Shown here: one piece after another, positions 8,326 to 22,499 of the stretch
Position numbering within the stretch: position 1 is the first letter of the stretch
Layout of the letters: every line of letters begins with the position of its first letter
IMG/VR virus record: IMGVR_UViG_3300048694_000994
Coordinates: 1 to 39,730 of that record
DNA from: a virus
Direction: 5' to 3' (one strand)
Length of the DNA: 39,730 bases
Translations under genes and position numbers: made by a program
Notes under the pieces: generated by a model
The model's input: only the letters and a program-made list of their open reading frames with translations
Databases searched by the model: none
Told to the model about the DNA's origin: nothing

Positions 8326-9349
8326 CATGGTGCAGTACGTTGGGTCAGAAGTGACCCTTGTATTTCAAGGCGAGATGGGCATGGGCAAATCTTCGATCCT
8401 CAACGTACTGGGTAGCCGCATGCCCGGGTATCGCATGGTCTATGCCGACCTGCCCACTTTCGATGTCTCCGATATTGGTGGAGTGCCTTTCACTGAGGTA
8501 GTCAACGGCATGAAGGTAACAAGCTTCGCGCCCAATGCGCTGCTCAACCTGCAACACGGGGCACCGGTGATCTTCATGGCCGATGAGATTGGCAAGGCAT
8601 CGCGTCCCGTGCAGAATTCCATGCTGCGCCTGCTGCACGAGGGCAAGGTTGGGGAGTATTCGCTGCCCAAAGGCAGCATCCGGTTTGCCACGACAAACCT
8701 TGCCGCTGAAGGGCTTGGCGACATGATGCAGGCCCATGCCATGAACCGGGTTGCATTCGTCACGGTTCGCAAACCCTCCGCCGAGCAATGGCTTCCTTGG
8801 GGCATGGCCAACAACGTCCACCCGGTAGTGCTTGCATGGGTTAAGCGCTTCCCCATGTGCCTTGACTCCTACATGGACGGCGTGAAGGACAACCCTTACA
8901 TCTTTTACCCGGGAAAAACCAATCGCCCGTTTGTCTCACCGCGTTCACTTGAGAAGGCAAGTCACATCATGCATCAGCGCCACAAGATCGGTGAGAACGC
9001 CACGGCTGCGGGGTTGTGTGGCACGGTAGGGGATGCTGCGGGCACCGACATGCTTGGCTTCGCGCAGACCTTTGACCGGCTGGCTTCATGGGAGTCGATC
9101 ATTGCTACCCCGGACACGGCAAGCGTGCCAAGCGCGCAGGACTTCGCGGCTAACTTCGTGACGGTGTTTGGTGCTATTTCTTCCGTGACGAAGGAAAGCT
9201 TCACCCCGTGGATGACATATTGCCAGCGCCTGCCCAAGGAATATCAGGGTGTCTTTGCCATGCAGGTGCTCACCTCGCCCAAGCGCAACATCGCCATCGA
9301 GAATCGCTCTTTCGTGGTGTGGGCTACTCAGAATCACTGGATGGTTTAA
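8276..9349 (+). CDS. MoxR-type AAA+ ATPase
   Basis: A 357-residue single-domain AAA+ protein. Walker A is GEMGMGKSS (32-40), Walker B IFMADE (99-104) and sensor 1 FATTN (137-141), the layout of the MoxR/AAA_5 branch. These ATPases act as chaperones that insert metals or remodel partners together with VWA-domain proteins. The next gene, two bases away, encodes such a VWA protein, so the pair almost certainly works together. The start follows GGAGAGACAAC. A degenerate GGGTCAG...TGACCC site lies at 8341 within the gene. Confidence 0.85.
   Translation: MNEMKLGVSVSLTEAADMVQYVGSEVTLVFQGEMGMGKSSILNVLGSRMPGYRMVYADLPTFDVSDIGGVPFTEVVNGMKVTSFAPNALLNLQHGAPVIFMADEIGKASRPVQNSMLRLLHEGKVGEYSLPKGSIRFATTNLAAEGLGDMMQAHAMNRVAFVTVRKPSAEQWLPWGMANNVHPVVLAWVKRFPMCLDSYMDGVKDNPYIFYPGKTNRPFVSPRSLEKASHIMHQRHKIGENATAAGLCGTVGDAAGTDMLGFAQTFDRLASWESIIATPDTASVPSAQDFAANFVTVFGAISSVTKESFTPWMTYCQRLPKEYQGVFAMQVLTSPKRNIAIENRSFVVWATQNHWMV
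8341..8357. promoter_or_regulatory. Degenerate GGGTCAG-family palindrome in the MoxR gene
   Basis: TGGGTCAGAAGTGACCC keeps both GGGTCA/TGACCC arms of the second palindrome family with an altered centre. Being intragenic, it could be coincidence. Confidence 0.3.
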
Positions 9350-9351
9350 CC

Positions 9352-10524
9352 ATGACAAACTATGACGGTAACCTGACGCCGCACCAGCGGCTGCAGAAGA
9401 ACATGCTCGCGCTCATTACCCATAAGCACTATCGCTCGCTGGGTGGGATCATCATGTCAGGCGAGGCGAGAGTGGATGAGACAGGGGAGGTACCCACTGC
9501 TGCAACCGATGGCTTCAACGTCATCTACTCCAAAGCGTTTATCTCCAGCATGCCGGACCCGGAGTTACGCTTTGTCATCCTGCACGAGAACCTGCACAAG
9601 GCACTGCGCCACCTGAGCACTTGGTACACCATGTGGCAGGAAGACCCGGGCACGGCAAACGCGGCGTGTGATTACGTCATCAACCTGATGATCATGCGTT
9701 CCTGTGAGGATGGCTTTCTCGCCATGCCCAAGATCGGGGGGCTTCTCGATGAACGCTTTGCTGGCATGGATGCGGGGGAAGTCTACCGGCTGCTTCGCAA
9801 GGAGGGGAACGGTCATCAGAGTAAGGGGTTTGATGTCCACGAGTGGGGCAAGGCAAACGCTCGGGGCAAGCAGGCGAAGGCCGAAGTTGACGCCGTAATC
9901 GAGAACGCCCTTCGCCAAGGGAGTTTATTGAAAGGCGTACTGGGCGGGGAGATTGACCGTGCGGTGGGGGAGATACTGGCACCGAAGGTGAACTGGCAGC
10001 AGGAGCTTTGGGAGTTTGTCACTTCCCTTTGCAAGGGGCACGACATGAGCACATGGCGGCGTCCGAACCGGCGCAGCATCGATAGCGGCGTCTACACCCC
10101 GTCATCCTTCACCGAGTCCATGGGTAGGCTTGTGATCGCCGTGGACACTTCGGGCTCTATCGACGGGGTAATGATCAGCCGCTTCTTGGGTGAGGTTGCT
10201 GGGATATGCAATGTGATCAACCCGGAACTGCTGGACTTGATCTACTGGGATGCGCGTGTCGCCGCTCATGAGAAGTACGGGCAGGGACAATACGAAAGCC
10301 TTATGTCCTCTACCCGGCCCAAGGGCGGCGGGGGTACTGCCCCGTCATGTGTTTCTGCGTACCTGCTTGAGCACAGCATCAAGCCTGAGTGCATCGTGGT
10401 GTTGACAGATGGCTATGTCGGCACGGATTGGGGGTCTGGATGGAATGCACCGGTGCTTTGGTGTGTCATCAACAACAAACGTGCGAGTGCTACTACGGGC
10501 CGCACACTTCATGTGGAGGTGTGA
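9352..10524 (+). CDS. VWA / DUF2201-type metallopeptidase-like partner of MoxR
   Basis: A 390-residue protein. The N-terminal half matches the putative metallopeptidase region of the DUF2201 family, with HENLH (78-82) giving an HExxH zinc motif. The C-terminal half is a von Willebrand A-like domain with a MIDAS-type DTSGS motif near residue 265 and VVLTDG further on. It follows the MoxR gene after two bases (TAACCATG). Such MoxR-VWA pairs occur in many bacteria and phages. Their targets are mostly unknown; inference here is a phage-encoded chaperone or protease-like remodeler. Confidence 0.8.
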   Translation: MTNYDGNLTPHQRLQKNMLALITHKHYRSLGGIIMSGEARVDETGEVPTAATDGFNVIYSKAFISSMPDPELRFVILHENLHKALRHLSTWYTMWQEDPGTANAACDYVINLMIMRSCEDGFLAMPKIGGLLDERFAGMDAGEVYRLLRKEGNGHQSKGFDVHEWGKANARGKQAKAEVDAVIENALRQGSLLKGVLGGEIDRAVGEILAPKVNWQQELWEFVTSLCKGHDMSTWRRPNRRSIDSGVYTPSSFTESMGRLVIAVDTSGSIDGVMISRFLGEVAGICNVINPELLDLIYWDARVAAHEKYGQGQYESLMSSTRPKGGGGTAPSCVSAYLLEHSIKPECIVVLTDGYVGTDWGSGWNAPVLWCVINNKRASATTGRTLHVEV

Positions 10525-16793: not shown

Positions 16794-16974
16794 CTCCCTG
16801 CAACCCATGTGCCAAACCTGTTGGATTGCACCGGGGGTCAAAAAAGTCAAAGTGCAGAACGGACGCGCCACCCGCTGGCGTTGCATGGCGTGCTACAAGC
16901 GCACCTCCACTTCGTTCATCCTTTCATTCAAGGCAGCAAACGAAGCTGCCAAGCGGCATAAGTACAGGGGATAG
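16765..16974 (+). CDS. Small zinc-finger protein
   Basis: A 69-residue frame (or 66 from the ATG at 16774; neither has a clear ribosome-binding site). It carries MCQTCWIAPGVKKVKVQNGRATRWRC-type spacing, a CxxC and later CMAC separated by about 22 residues, followed by a basic helix (AAKRHKYRG). This is a typical small phage zinc finger. It overlaps the end of the previous gene by 29 bp and ends two bases before the polymerase. Confidence 0.6.
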   Translation: MKLMSTKTPSSLQPMCQTCWIAPGVKKVKVQNGRATRWRCMACYKRTSTSFILSFKAANEAAKRHKYRG

Positions 16975-16976
16975 GG

Positions 16977-18296
16977 ATGCCACTGCTTACAGTAGATTTT
17001 GAGACGTATTACGACAAGGAATACTCCCTATCGAAACTGACTACCGAGCAATACATCCGTGATGACCGATTTGAAGTAATCGGGGTATCCGTCAAGCAGA
17101 ATAATAGTACAGTCAGTTGGTTCAGCGGCACCAAGGAAGAGACCAAGACCTTTCTCATGCAATTTCCTTGGGCGGATTCGATAGCGCTTGCTCACAACGC
17201 ATTGTTTGATGGTGCCATCCTTAGCTGGATTTTTGATATTCACCCAAGGGTTCTGGCTGATACCTTGAGCATGTCACGCCCCCTGCATGGCATTGAAGTC
17301 GGGGGTAGCTTGGCAAAGCTGGTCGAGCACTATGGGGTTGGCGTGAAAGGCACGGAGGTCCAGAACGCGCTTGGCAAGCGGCGCGTGGGTTTCACCCCGG
17401 AAGAGCTTGCTGCGTATGGTAGGTACTGCTGCAACGACACCGAGCTTACTTATAAGCTTTTCCAGAAGATGGTGGAGGGGTTTCCCCCCACTGAGTTAAA
17501 GCTCATTGACCTGACTCTCAAGATGTTCACCGAGCCTGTGTTGCGGCTGGACGCACTGCTCCTTGAGCAGCATCTGCATGAGGTACGCCAGAAGAAAGAA
17601 GTCCTGCTTGCTTCACTCTTCGGCTCAGTGGAGGACGAGGAAGAAAAGAAAACCAACAAGAAATCCCTCATGAGCAACGCCAAGTTCGCGCAGTTGCTGA
17701 TTGAGCACGGGGTAAACCCGCCGACCAAGATTAGCGCACGCACGGGTAAGCCGACATTTGCTTTCGCCAAGACCGATCAGGCAATGAAAAACTTGCTGGA
17801 GCACCCCGATGTTGGTGTGCAGACGCTCGTGGGGGTGCGCCTTGGCGTGAAGTCAACCATTGAGGAGACACGTACCGAGCGGTTTCTTGACATCGCGCAG
17901 CGTGGCCCGCTGCCCATACCGTTGAAATACTTTGCCGCACACACGGGGAGATGGGGCGGTTGTTTAGTTGCCGATACGGAGGTTACGGTCTACAATTTGG
18001 TCAACGGGGTAGAAACCAAAAGGATTGTGGACGTATTGCTGGATGACCTTGTATGGGACGGAGAAGCGTTCGTACCCCACGAAGGGGTGGTGTTCAGCGG
18101 CTTCTCTGAAGTCATCGAGTGGGACGGGGTAAAAGGGACCGAAGACCATGCCGTATTTACAGACGCCGGAGAGATTAGCTTACGAGAGGCGATGCAGGGA
18201 CAACACAAAATCAAGGTTGGAGGATGCCCTTCCCAAGACGATGTGGACACCGCAAGACTCTTTGTGGGTGACAACAAAAGACAAGCTCAGGTGTAA
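16977..18296 (+). CDS. polA: DNA polymerase I N-terminal half fused to N-intein
   Basis: A 439-residue protein. Residues 1-328 are the N-extein. It has a DnaQ-type 3'-5' proofreading domain with DFET (7-10), HNALFDG (73-79) and YCCND (150-154), then the start of the polymerase domain ending at the conserved TGRWGG. Residue 329 (17961) is the splicing Cys: CLVADTEV is intein block A, and GTEDHAVF about 67 residues later is block B with its His. The N-intein runs about 111 residues, its last 23 overlapping the endonuclease gene, and then stops. The other half of the polymerase is encoded at 18893 in a different frame, so a working enzyme requires protein trans-splicing. The start follows AGGGGATAGGG. 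Confidence 0.9.
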   Translation: MPLLTVDFETYYDKEYSLSKLTTEQYIRDDRFEVIGVSVKQNNSTVSWFSGTKEETKTFLMQFPWADSIALAHNALFDGAILSWIFDIHPRVLADTLSMSRPLHGIEVGGSLAKLVEHYGVGVKGTEVQNALGKRRVGFTPEELAAYGRYCCNDTELTYKLFQKMVEGFPPTELKLIDLTLKMFTEPVLRLDALLLEQHLHEVRQKKEVLLASLFGSVEDEEEKKTNKKSLMSNAKFAQLLIEHGVNPPTKISARTGKPTFAFAKTDQAMKNLLEHPDVGVQTLVGVRLGVKSTIEETRTERFLDIAQRGPLPIPLKYFAAHTGRWGGCLVADTEVTVYNLVNGVETKRIVDVLLDDLVWDGEAFVPHEGVVFSGFSEVIEWDGVKGTEDHAVFTDAGEISLREAMQGQHKIKVGGCPSQDDVDTARLFVGDNKRQAQV

Positions 18297-18912
18297 GTGC
18301 CAGTGTGGGCGGGAACGGTTGGTGCGGGTACGCGAGCTTCTGGACCAGAAATCCCGATGTTGTCGTTCTTGCTCAGTGAAGTTGAGAATGTTGCGCGTAC
18401 CAGTGGAGCAACGTATTGCAGCGGCTAAAAAAGCTTCTTTAGCGGCTGTACTAAAACTAGCTGACCGCCGCGATCCTTACAAAGAAAAGTACGAAGAGGC
18501 ATTGAGCCATGTGCTCAATATCGCTGCTGGCGCAAAGCAGCGTTGTACTAACCCAAATAGTCTCGGGTACTCCAACTATGGGGGGCGTGGTATCGCGTTT
18601 AAGTTTGTGTCTGTCAGGGCGTTCGCAGAGTGGGTGTTAGATAACTTGGGGGTGCGTCCGTCACCGTTTCATAGCATAGACCGCGTAGACAACAACCGCC
18701 ACTATGAGCCGGGCAACTTACGGTGGGCGTCGCGCACGGAGCAAGCGCGTAACAAGCGTGCGTACAAAAGAACGCAGAACGGAGAACGCATCCGTCGTCT
18801 CAAAGCATTGCGCGATGATTTAACGTATGAAACCTTGCGGCTGTGGATTACGCAAGGTACAACTGACGAAGAAATTTTGAACCGGAGAAAATATGCTCGT
18901 CGCGGTGTATGA
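18148..18912 (+). CDS. HNH homing endonuclease between the intein halves
   Basis: A 254-residue frame distinct from both polymerase frames. A zinc knuckle (KCQCG ... CCRSC, about residues 50-75) precedes the phage HNH core: AGAKQRCTNPNS, YSNYGGRGI and then IDRVDNN and LRWASRTEQARN (about 130-200). The C-terminal DLTYETLRLWITQG looks like a DNA-binding helix-turn-helix. The ATG at 18148 follows AGGGA with a 9-base gap and overlaps the N-intein by 149 bp. An internal start near 18217-18241 is possible. By position it should cut intein-free polymerase alleles and so spread the split-intein cassette. That is the known logic of fractured genes; target cutting is inferred. Confidence 0.8.
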   Translation: MPYLQTPERLAYERRCRDNTKSRLEDALPKTMWTPQDSLWVTTKDKLRCKCQCGRERLVRVRELLDQKSRCCRSCSVKLRMLRVPVEQRIAAAKKASLAAVLKLADRRDPYKEKYEEALSHVLNIAAGAKQRCTNPNSLGYSNYGGRGIAFKFVSVRAFAEWVLDNLGVRPSPFHSIDRVDNNRHYEPGNLRWASRTEQARNKRAYKRTQNGERIRRLKALRDDLTYETLRLWITQGTTDEEILNRRKYARRGV

Positions 18913-19843
18913 CATTCAAAACTGCGGACCCCGCCATCGATTTGTCGCCAACGGTAAGTTGGTGCATAACTCAGACAAGATAAATCTTCAGAATCTACCA
19001 AGCCGGGGCGAAAACGCTGGTACGTTGAAAAGCTCCATTTTGCCTCCGCCCGGGTACGTCATCATCGACGCAGACTCAGCCCAGATCGAGGCCCGCATTC
19101 TTGCATGGCTCTCCGGGCAAACCGATCTTGTAGAAGCGTTCAGGAATAAACAGGACGTTTATTCGATCATGGCAAGCCTCATCTACGCCAAGCCGGTGGA
19201 TCAGATTACCAAGCAGGAACGCTTTGTTGGAAAAACGGTAATCCTCGGTTGCGGGTATGGGACTGGTGCGGCAAAGTTGCAGGTGTTTCTGAAAGGGGCT
19301 ACTCCTTCCATTGAGATGACGCTGGATGAATGCCGTCACATCGTGGATACCTACCGCCGGAACTACTTCAAGATTCCTAAACTATGGGATCAGGGTAACA
19401 CTGCTATCGCCGCTGCAATCGATGGGCAGACGGCCCCGTTTGGCAGGCCAGAAGTAATCAAACTTGCTTTTGGGATGTTTCACACCCCTCTGGGGATACC
19501 TATTAAGTATCATCGGCTTCGGCGTTGGCGTGACCCCAAGGGTCAGGAAAAGTTCCTGTATGATTCTCGTACCGGGAAGACCGACATCTGGGGCGGTAAG
19601 CTCACGGAAAATATTGTGCAGCATTTAGCCCGCATAATTATCGGGCTGCAGATGATTCGTATTTCTAAACGGTACCGGGTAGTTTTGACTGTGCACGATG
19701 CTATTGGCTGTGTCGTAAAGAAAGAAGAAGCCCTTGAATCGCAAGCTTACGTAGAAGAGTGCATGCGCTGGGCTCCGGAATGGGCGCAAGGCTTGCCGCT
19801 TAATTGCGAGTCAGGGATAGGGGAAAACTATGGTCAGTGTTAA
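18893..19843 (+). CDS. polA: C-intein fused to DNA polymerase I catalytic half
   Basis: A 316-residue protein. Residues 1-26 are a compact C-intein: VYDIQNCGPRHRF is block F and LVHN block G with the penultimate His and terminal Asn, followed by Ser 27 as the +1 nucleophile. The extein continues DKINLQNLPSRG and has motif A (DADSAQIEARI, 59-69), motif B (R110, K114, YG at 122-123) and motif C (TVHDA, 266-270). Motif C has Ala where PolA enzymes usually have Glu. The ATG is preceded by CGGAGA five bases away. An in-frame TGA at 18878 closes the frame just upstream, so this half is translated on its own. Splicing to the upstream half gives about 618 residues of polymerase. Confidence 0.9.
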   Translation: MLVAVYDIQNCGPRHRFVANGKLVHNSDKINLQNLPSRGENAGTLKSSILPPPGYVIIDADSAQIEARILAWLSGQTDLVEAFRNKQDVYSIMASLIYAKPVDQITKQERFVGKTVILGCGYGTGAAKLQVFLKGATPSIEMTLDECRHIVDTYRRNYFKIPKLWDQGNTAIAAAIDGQTAPFGRPEVIKLAFGMFHTPLGIPIKYHRLRRWRDPKGQEKFLYDSRTGKTDIWGGKLTENIVQHLARIIIGLQMIRISKRYRVVLTVHDAIGCVVKKEEALESQAYVEECMRWAPEWAQGLPLNCESGIGENYGQC

Positions 19844-19856
19844 CAAGGAAGCATAG

Positions 19857-20519
19857 ATGCCCAAGGCGTGGTCCTACAGCAGCATGTCGCTGTTCCAGCA
19901 ATGCCCCAAAAAATACTACCATCTGAGAGTAGCAAAGGACATTGTAGAGCCGCAGTCAGCACAAATGCGTTACGGACTTGACGCGCATAAAGCTGCCGAG
20001 GATTACGTGAGGGATGGCAAGGACCTGCCCGGGTATCTTGCCTACATGAAAGAACCGCTTGACCGGCTGAAGGCCATGCAAGGACAGGTGTATTGTGAGC
20101 ATCGCATGGGGCTCACTGCGCAACTTCAGCCGTGTGGGTTTTTTGATAAGGAAGTATGGTGGCGTGGAATCGCGGATTTGCTGGTGGTCAACGGCCCCAA
20201 AGCGAGTCTGATCGACTACAAGACCGGCAAAAATACCTACCCCGATACGAAACAGCTTGAGTTGCTGTCACTCGCGGTTTTCAAGCATTTCCCCGAAGTA
20301 GAGGTAGTAAAAGCAGGACTCCTTTTTGTCGTGCATCCCGCGTTCGTCAGGGAGCGGTTTGAGACAGTGGAGCAGGAAGAACGGTGGAAAAAATGGTTGG
20401 ATCAGTCAAACCAACTTGATACGGCGTACCAGTTTGACATATGGAACCCCAAACAGAATTTCACTTGCAAGGCGTGGTGCCCGGTGCTCTCTTGTGAACA
20501 CAATGGCAAAGCACGATAG
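19857..20519 (+). CDS. Cas4/RecB-like PD-(D/E)XK exonuclease
   Basis: A 220-residue nuclease. The N-terminal YSSMSLFQQCPKKYY motif, H44, D107 in GIADLLV and DYK (120-122) form the RecB/Cas4-type active site. C16 in the N-terminal motif and three C-terminal cysteines (CKAWCPVLSC) match the four-cysteine arrangement that binds an iron-sulfur cluster in Cas4 and AddB. Such phage enzymes process DNA ends in replication or recombination. It follows the polymerase after 13 bases with AAGGAAG. Confidence 0.85.
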   Translation: MPKAWSYSSMSLFQQCPKKYYHLRVAKDIVEPQSAQMRYGLDAHKAAEDYVRDGKDLPGYLAYMKEPLDRLKAMQGQVYCEHRMGLTAQLQPCGFFDKEVWWRGIADLLVVNGPKASLIDYKTGKNTYPDTKQLELLSLAVFKHFPEVEVVKAGLLFVVHPAFVRERFETVEQEERWKKWLDQSNQLDTAYQFDIWNPKQNFTCKAWCPVLSCEHNGKAR

Positions 20520-20528
20520 GAGACAGCA

Positions 20529-20804
20529 ATGCCCTATACAAAATCCCCTCGGCCCTATAAGCACGAATGGCAGATGGAAAAGCAACGCGGTGAGAAACCT
20601 GAGCGTGCAGCGCGTGCCCGTGCGCGGTATGCCATGGACAAAAAAGGTGTGGACCGCAAGGGTAAGGATATTGACCATATCGTGCCCTTGTCCAAAGGTG
20701 GCACCAACGCGCCGGGTAATCTGCGCCTGAAGACAGTAAGCTCCAACCGCTCTTTCAGCCGTAACAGCGATCACACGGTCAAGCGCAACCGCCCGAAGAA
20801 GTAA
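20529..20804 (+). CDS. HNH endonuclease, small
   Basis: A 91-residue protein with a classic HNH core: DIDHIVPLSKGG (48-58), N60/N64 and LRLKTVSSNRS. The N-terminus is basic (KRPYKHEW type, RARARYAMDKK). Small HNH enzymes next to replication genes may be packaging, homing or structure-specific nucleases; the type is not decidable. The start follows TAGGAGACAGCA. Confidence 0.85.
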   Translation: MPYTKSPRPYKHEWQMEKQRGEKPERAARARARYAMDKKGVDRKGKDIDHIVPLSKGGTNAPGNLRLKTVSSNRSFSRNSDHTVKRNRPKK

Positions 20805-20939: not shown

Positions 20940-22499
20940 TTGCAGATAATAGAAAATAAAGCTCTACACCTTCGCGTGCGCGACCCGCAGCGCATCACGT
21001 CAGTCATTCCATGCAGCAAACAGGTTGGCGAACATGAGGTGCTGGTGCGCTGGGGACTGGAGGAAGTGCAGGTATTGAAGAATCTGCAGGTGAAGAACGT
21101 CCCTTCCCCGATTCTTCGCAGTTACGATTGGCCCGGGATGCACAAGCCCTTTGCGCATCAACGAACCACGGCTGAATTCTTTACGCTTCACAGGCGGTGT
21201 TTCTGCTTCAACAGCCAAGGCACGGGCAAGACCGCAAGCGTGATATGGGCAGCAGACTTCCTCATGAACGTAAAGCGCCTTCGTCGCGTGCTTGTGGTCT
21301 GTCCCGTGTCCATCATGGGGTCTGCATGGCAAGGGGATCTTTTTAAGTTCGCCATGCACCGCAGTTGTGACATAGCCCACCATCCGCGTTCAGAAAAACG
21401 CAGTCGTATCATCAAGGGCAACGCAGAGTTTGTCATCATCAATCCTGAAGGACTTGATATAGTTGCTGAGGCTATTGAAGAGGCAGGTGACTTTGATCTT
21501 TTCGTTATTGACGAGGCAAACAATTTCAAAAGCCATACCAGCAAACGCTGGAAAACCCTCACCAAACTGATCAAGCCGCATACGTGGGTGTGGATGATGA
21601 CGGGTACCCCCGCTTCGCAGTCGCCCGTGGACGCCTATGGACTTGCCAAGATCATCAACCCGAACAAAGTGCCGAAATTCTTTGGTGCGTTCAGGGATTC
21701 GGTGATGACGCAGATCACGCGCTTCAAGTATGTGCCTAAGCCCAATGCAAGCGACATCGTATTTAACGCGCTGCAACCGGCAATCAGGTTTACCAAAGAA
21801 GAATGCCTTGACCTGCCTGAGATGATGTATGTCACGCGAGATGTCGAGCTTACCAAGCAGCAGGAGGAATACTACGAGCGATTCTTGCGGCAACAGCTAG
21901 TCGTGGCGGCGGGCGAGGAAATCAGCGCACCGAACGCTGCGGCAATGTTGAGTAAATTACTTCAGATTTCCGGTGGAGCAGTTTATTCAGACACCCGCGA
22001 AGTAATTGAGTTTGACTGCAACAACCGACTGCAGGCGCTCAAAGAAGTGATTGACGAGGCAAGCCATAAGGTGCTTATATTCGTGCCTTACACGCATAGT
22101 CTGGAGATGATTTCAGGCTGGCTCAAGACCAAAAATATAACAAACGAAATCATCAACGGCGCTGTCGCACCAAACAAACGAACTGAGATATTTAACCGCT
22201 TCCAGACCACAAGCGAGCCGCAGGTGCTGGTGATCCAGCCGCAGGCTGCATCGCACGGGGTAACACTTCACGCTGCCAACGTAATTGTGTATTGGTCGCC
22301 GGTGATGAGCGTGGAGACGTACTTGCAAGCCAACGCCCGGGTGCATCGGGCGGGTCAGGTGAACAAGGTAACAGTAGTGCATTTGCAGGGCAGTAGAGTT
22401 GAGCGACGGATGTACAAAATGCTGCAGAACAAAATAGATGTACACCAACGCTTGGTCGATCTATACAAGGAAGAACTTGGGGAAGTTGTAAATCTTTAG
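20940..22499 (+). CDS. SNF2-family DEAD-like helicase
   Basis: A 519-residue superfamily 2 ATPase. The HKPFAHQ motif (68-74), Walker A SQGTGKTAS (92-100), motif II as DEAN (about 190), TGTPAS motif III and the QANARVHRAGQ motif VI are present in order. The SNF2-like C-terminal lobe supports a DNA translocase or remodelling helicase. It starts at a TTG (20940) a few bases after GGTGA, with no better start nearby; the unusual start may limit its level. It is likely part of the replisome or recombination set. Confidence 0.85.
   Translation: MQIIENKALHLRVRDPQRITSVIPCSKQVGEHEVLVRWGLEEVQVLKNLQVKNVPSPILRSYDWPGMHKPFAHQRTTAEFFTLHRRCFCFNSQGTGKTASVIWAADFLMNVKRLRRVLVVCPVSIMGSAWQGDLFKFAMHRSCDIAHHPRSEKRSRIIKGNAEFVIINPEGLDIVAEAIEEAGDFDLFVIDEANNFKSHTSKRWKTLTKLIKPHTWVWMMTGTPASQSPVDAYGLAKIINPNKVPKFFGAFRDSVMTQITRFKYVPKPNASDIVFNALQPAIRFTKEECLDLPEMMYVTRDVELTKQQEEYYERFLRQQLVVAAGEEISAPNAAAMLSKLLQISGGAVYSDTREVIEFDCNNRLQALKEVIDEASHKVLIFVPYTHSLEMISGWLKTKNITNEIINGAVAPNKRTEIFNRFQTTSEPQVLVIQPQAASHGVTLHAANVIVYWSPVMSVETYLQANARVHRAGQVNKVTVVHLQGSRVERRMYKMLQNKIDVHQRLVDLYKEELGEVVNL

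Follow-up and report, generated by a model that had tools for sequence, protein, structure and literature searches.

A fractured family A DNA polymerase gene with a probable mobile split-intein and HNH endonuclease cassette, and its relatives with overlapping-frame HNH genes

Introduction

Fractured genes carrying split inteins, with a free-standing endonuclease between the two halves, were reportedly found in phage and metagenomic DNA by Dassa et al. in 2009, where a Vsr-like endonuclease is said to have been highlighted. Here we analyse a locus of this kind, the polA gene at positions 16977-19843 of the IMG/VR virus record IMGVR_UViG_3300048694_000994, of which the whole stretch of 39,730 nucleotides was studied and is called the window below. 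In it an enzyme gene is divided between two open reading frames (ORFs), the break is filled by the halves of an intein, and a free-standing HNH endonuclease ORF lies between them. The locus resembles the fractured genes of Dassa 2009 in that a split intein interrupts a gene for DNA synthesis and an endonuclease gene separates its halves, but differs from them in that the endonuclease is of the HNH rather than the Vsr-like type, the broken gene encodes a family A polymerase, and the ORFs overlap, with the HNH gene occupying the +1 frame, as it does in unbroken inteins.

Three further systems come close to this one. The passages describing the PolB of Pseudomonas phage MIJ3 report two ORFs with split-intein halves and an HNH ORF between them (PMC6892783); the window likewise has a phage polymerase in two ORFs with split-intein halves flanking an HNH gene, but its polymerase belongs to family A rather than family B, and it has overlapping-frame relatives, none of which appear in those passages. 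The "ShiLan domain" of a phage methylase hides an out-of-frame HNH in an insertion that is open in the host frame and is explicitly devoid of intein motifs (PMC11855218). The HNH genes of the cis (continuous) relatives of the window intein are similarly out of frame within an insertion open in the host frame; unlike in ShiLan, which has no intein splicing domains, the HNH here lies inside a true intein (cis forms) or between intein halves (window). Finally, in phage APSE-1 (L242, NC_000935) the annotated HNH gene P46 is nested entirely in the DNA polymerase gene P45, within an intein and in a different frame. As in the window, this is an intein of a phage PolA with a related HNH in the +1 frame, but it is unbroken, sits at another polA site, and its HNH is 25% identical to that of the window over the matched part. 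A literature search, with subscription journals mostly outside its scope, found no account of an intein overlapped by an HNH in another frame, although the nested APSE-1 genes are publicly annotated. The fractured arrangement itself is known (Dassa 2009; MIJ3 PolB) and is not rare; the chief interest of the locus is its link to overlapping-frame inteins.

Results

Architecture of the polA locus

The ORF listing and translations give three ORFs on the plus strand (Table 1): the N-half of PolA with the N-intein (16977-18296), the HNH endonuclease, and the C-intein with the C-half of PolA (18893-19843). A first-pass annotation of this DNA had called them three adjacent frames; all are encoded as it described, but they overlap rather than merely adjoin, the HNH ORF sharing 149 nt with the N-half (56 nt with the 18241 start) and 20 nt with the C-half. 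Both domains of a family A DNA polymerase, exonuclease and polymerase, are detected by Pfam across the two halves, with the N-extein carrying the 3'-5' exonuclease domain and the region up to HTGRWGG. In the translation of the C-extein the motifs DADSAQIEAR, RFVGKTVILGCGYG and TVHDA are recognizable by eye. The residues of a class 1 intein are all present (C...GTEDH...VHN/S, the slash marking the splice point), and the homologues are alike in this; the earlier description thus stood as regards Cys1, the block B histidine and the separate stop of the N-intein, as well as the ribosome-binding site and ATG of the C-half and its HN end followed by Ser+1. The insert at the splice point measures 1010 bp (2 mod 3), and the polymerase halves are therefore in different frames. 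The TGA adduced earlier against read-through does sit in the C-half frame, and the two exteins add up to 618 residues, the length anticipated for the spliced polymerase.

Table 1. Features of the fractured polA locus in the window
Feature	Position	Strand	Evidence or remark
PolA N-extein, 328 aa, to HTGRWGG	16977..17960	+	Pfam DNA_pol_A_exo1 (PF01612), E 2.6e-07
N-terminal split intein, 111 aa, Cys1, block B GTEDH	17961..18296	+	own TAA stop 18294-18296
HNH endonuclease ORF, 254 aa	18148..18912	+	+1 frame relative to N-intein; alternative ATG 18241 gives 223 aa
TGA in the C-half frame	18878..18880	+	sequence; the frame becomes open at insert position 921
C-terminal split intein, 26 aa, ending VHN	18893..18970	+	ATG preceded by CCGGAG
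PolA C-extein, 290 aa, Ser+1, palm/fingers, plus stop	18971..19843	+	Pfam DNA_pol_A (PF00476), E 3e-35

We consider it very probable that this is a fractured family A polymerase gene that harbours a mobile cassette of split intein and HNH. Each of the three ORFs would be translated separately, after which the N-intein and the C-intein would associate, excise themselves and ligate G328 to S329, giving the full-length polymerase. The HNH enzyme would cut intein-free polA alleles at the splice site, and repair would copy the whole cassette in.

Empty sites and homologous split loci

Among the best 80 polA relatives in IMG/VR, 79 are without the insert (identity 54-69%). In each of these the N-extein aligns through residue 328, and the exteins meet precisely at G328/S329, with a 0-bp insert at the predicted splice point. 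A second IMG/VR contig (61 kb) aligns with the window for 11.5 kb, showing no mismatches and a single gap, and its polA-HNH proteins are 100% identical to those of the window. A nucleotide search against known phages returned no match.

We sought the cassette in IMG/VR with a pattern for the HN/polA junction, an HNH scan, an HNH profile and an N-intein pattern, and the same arrangement was recovered widely. The N-intein pattern yielded 52 split loci in the corresponding polA region, with 39 distinct N-inteins. The window N-intein is 64-83% identical to N-inteins at other fractured polA loci and its C-intein 81-100% identical in relatives. A stop is found in the N-intein frame at all 52 loci and a related HNH at 50, in the +1 frame in 48 of these, the two exceptions being truncated HNHs. 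The C-half has a start codon 26 codons before the splice point in 41/52 loci and a Shine-Dalgarno-like sequence in 44/52. The frame offset between the halves varies, being 2 mod 3 at 38 loci, 0 at 11 and 1 at three. An HNH cassette in a phage polA had been anticipated to be new or rare; the 52 loci and the already published PolB of MIJ3 speak otherwise. In one derivative (L083) most of the HNH is gone, with both intein halves kept and the gene still split. Short inserts of 601-622 bp are seen at L389, where the HNH is missing, and at L373 and L398, where it is truncated. Loci L273-L278, whose N- and C-inteins share a frame, were considered as cis forms at the window site, but a stop precedes the HNH and they are split. 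Five continuous inteins recovered by the N-intein pattern sit outside this polA site, one of them, judged by its flanks, at a helicase-type NKLLQIS site.

These comparisons bear on three other explanations. As a single metagenomic virus record underlies the window, a sequencing or assembly error might have broken a continuous intein gene; the second contig identical at the locus and the fractured structure of 52 homologous loci rule this out unless the errors are shared by all records, and its probability is negligible. Phage introns often house HNH enzymes, and the insert could on that ground be a self-splicing intron with an HNH ORF; however, there is no Rfam group I or II intron match in 16900-19900, and conserved intein blocks are encoded at both ends of the insert, leaving this account hardly credible. 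The overlap of all three ORFs also makes recoding conceivable, with a programmed frameshift or hop past the HNH region yielding a single polypeptide that splices in cis. We hold this to be very unlikely: the HNH region of the window has 13 and 12 stops in its two non-HNH frames (13 in the N-intein frame), the offset differs among homologues, and a separate start codon near -26 with a Shine-Dalgarno-like sequence is common. Plain read-through or a simple frameshift was rejected on account of the many stops and the varying offset.

The HNH endonuclease

The HNH ORF matches a PHROG HNH endonuclease family (E 4.8e-32), and the homologues keep the D-R-x-D-N, GNLRWA, EQARN and Cys motifs, including the HNH catalytic motif. 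The nonsynonymous rate (dN) is below the synonymous rate (dS) in 78/78 pairs of HNH genes, with dS saturated in most. The predicted structure has a predicted local distance difference test (pLDDT) score of 84 and matches viral HNH models in BFVD, a strand-strand-helix element being predicted at 144-176. A nucleotide search against known phages returned no match.

Probable mobility of the intein and HNH as a unit

In the polA tree, a quick tree with long branches, intein-bearing and intein-free genes are mixed, requiring seven changes, four of them forced by well-supported branches. Intein identity exceeds extein identity in 78/78 pairs (medians 0.77 vs 0.56). Across these pairs the identity of the intein correlates with that of the HNH (0.63), while the correlation between extein and HNH is 0.09. 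Because intein and HNH identities covary while those of HNH and extein do not, and the polA tree is intermingled, the data fit a horizontal spread of the intein and the HNH as one unit, whose co-inheritance is decoupled from the polymerase.

The polymerase could instead work as two non-covalent halves, with the intein halves surviving as non-splicing relics. Some phage genes do function in pieces, the split nrdA of phage Aeh1 being an example. But Cys1, the block B TxxH, HN and Ser+1 are all retained, the intein is better conserved than the exteins in every pair, and the HNH-less derivative keeps both intein halves intact, so that we regard such relics as improbable. It is likewise unlikely that the HNH is a free-standing endonuclease that arrived by chance and plays no part in intein mobility. 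Phages often carry HNH genes, and relatives that stand alone do occur; against this, its position and +1 frame are alike in 48/50 split loci, its identity covaries with that of the intein and not the extein, and HNH clades are site-specific. The mobile cassette remains our preferred reading, and the split intein, trans-splicing and HNH-driven spread proposed in the first-pass annotation are supported by sequence comparison, whereas its view of the cassette as novel or rare is not.

Unbroken relatives with an overlapping HNH

Five split polymerases (L094, L099, L101, L269 on the contig of L113, and L281) have, downstream, a second and unbroken intein with an overlapping-frame HNH. A frame-blind scan for GPFIVHNC, the C-terminal end of this second intein, gave 57 loci. 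Relative to the intein, the HNH is in the +1 frame at 57/57, and at 57/57 the intein frame is free of stops across the HNH match; the same frame has 13 stops in the window. The hosts are mostly polA genes, at the YGGK/C or VEN/C site, and for the rest helicase-like genes. More cis forms occur at an LA/CGYG-type polA site and in other genes, including on bacterial genome contigs, and three (L101, EBPR siphovirus 2 and L281) have the HNH in the +2 rather than the +1 frame. In isolated phages the cis form is found in APSE-1 (P45 with nested P46), Shewanella phage SFCi1 and Caulobacter phage RW. An AlphaFold model of the cis intein of L094, a homologue and not the window halves, is confident at 1-90 (N part) and ~250-281 (C part), with very low confidence in the HNH-overlapping part; its best Foldseek matches among solved structures are the gp41-1, DnaB and RecA inteins, as would suit a Hint (horseshoe) fold in this homologue.

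Several individual loci were recorded alongside these. The overlapping HNH of the second intein at L101:5401-5755 has one in-frame stop and may be decaying. L143, L152 and L158 each have one long ORF with two inteins and a +1-frame HNH gene overlapping each. The same cis intein with an overlapping +1 HNH is found in other genes at L249, L251, L252, L254 and L289, on bacterial contigs and one viral contig.

Dual coding, fracture and proposed direction of change

To assess dual coding we compared stops in the intein frame with those expected on shuffling the synonymous codons of the HNH. At 47 cis loci, drawn from loci preselected as open, none was seen against 318 expected, whereas at 13 split loci 204 were seen against 198 expected. 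As stops are absent in cis loci and at chance level in split ones, and as 48/50 split loci retain the +1 position of the HNH, fracture seems to release the dual-coding constraint and may offer a route to split inteins. Compared with cis relatives, split N-inteins are also more acidic (median charge -12 vs -6) and split C-inteins more basic (+3 vs +1), a shift that would be as expected for fragments needing to find each other.

In an unrooted tree the HNHs fall into site-specific clades; those of split loci form one clade, grouped with the HNHs of the LA/CGYG-site cis inteins. In the intein tree, also unrooted, the split group includes the intein of Moraxella phage Mcat21 too. That locus (L248:2629-3558) opens with a ThyX-like part, passes into a short PolA flank ending HTGRYGG and continues as a related, unbroken mini-intein that has no HNH; it has the look of a polA fragment displaced together with its intein. 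We considered it as a cis intein in polA and rejected it, since the gene is by eye a ThyX-like/PolA-flank chimera.

Both sides of the tree contain cis forms with the overlap, and for this reason we infer that the simplest history has the cis form with an overlapping HNH first and a single later fracture. The cassette would be one member of a wider family whose inteins are overlapped by a +1-frame HNH gene, and at the polA site studied here a break in the intein frame would have left a split intein and an HNH gene freed from dual coding. More generally, we lean towards the view that a large class of phage inteins encodes the homing endonuclease as a separate +1-frame gene over the intein linker, and that breaking the intein frame makes fractured genes like this polA and frees the endonuclease.

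A number of points weigh against this picture. No cis intein was found at the corresponding polA site in the IMG/VR scans (0 vs 52 split). The direction from cis to split follows from parsimony only, both trees being unrooted. The preselection of the 47 loci affects the stop test, though the 57/57 set was unselected. Split inteins at the window site may trace to one event, so that the charge comparison would not be independent. For the HNH protein itself, a Pfam search gave no match, and sequence and fold searches of the PDB found no solved structure matching it. As for its start codon, conservation tends to favour ATG 18148, kept in 14/16 homologues having an HNH, over the alternative ATG 18241, where several homologues have CTG or CTA.

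Neighbouring genes

Two genes downstream of polA, the window encodes a small HNH-type ORF of 91 aa (20529-20804; phrog_6050, E 6.6e-07), and outside the polA locus, at 9208-10524, a 438-aa ORF matches a PHROG labelled HNH endonuclease (phrog_1314, E 3.7e-84). The window helicase (20940-22499, sequence LSKLLQISGGAVYSD) is intein-free at the site that in L146 and L178 is occupied by a cis intein overlapped by an HNH.

Biological significance

The origin of split inteins and fractured genes is an open question on which this family bears. It holds four states: intein-free, cis with an overlapping HNH, and split either with or without an HNH. Some of these can be had in cultivable phage isolates (Caulobacter phage RW and Shewanella phage SFCi1). 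The family also enlarges the set of split inteins used in biotechnology by dozens of natural examples with short, 26-residue C-parts, and it illustrates that overlapping frames can conceal endonuclease genes from annotation. The HNH genes hidden in the overlapping frame of unbroken inteins in its relatives suggest how fractured genes may arise.
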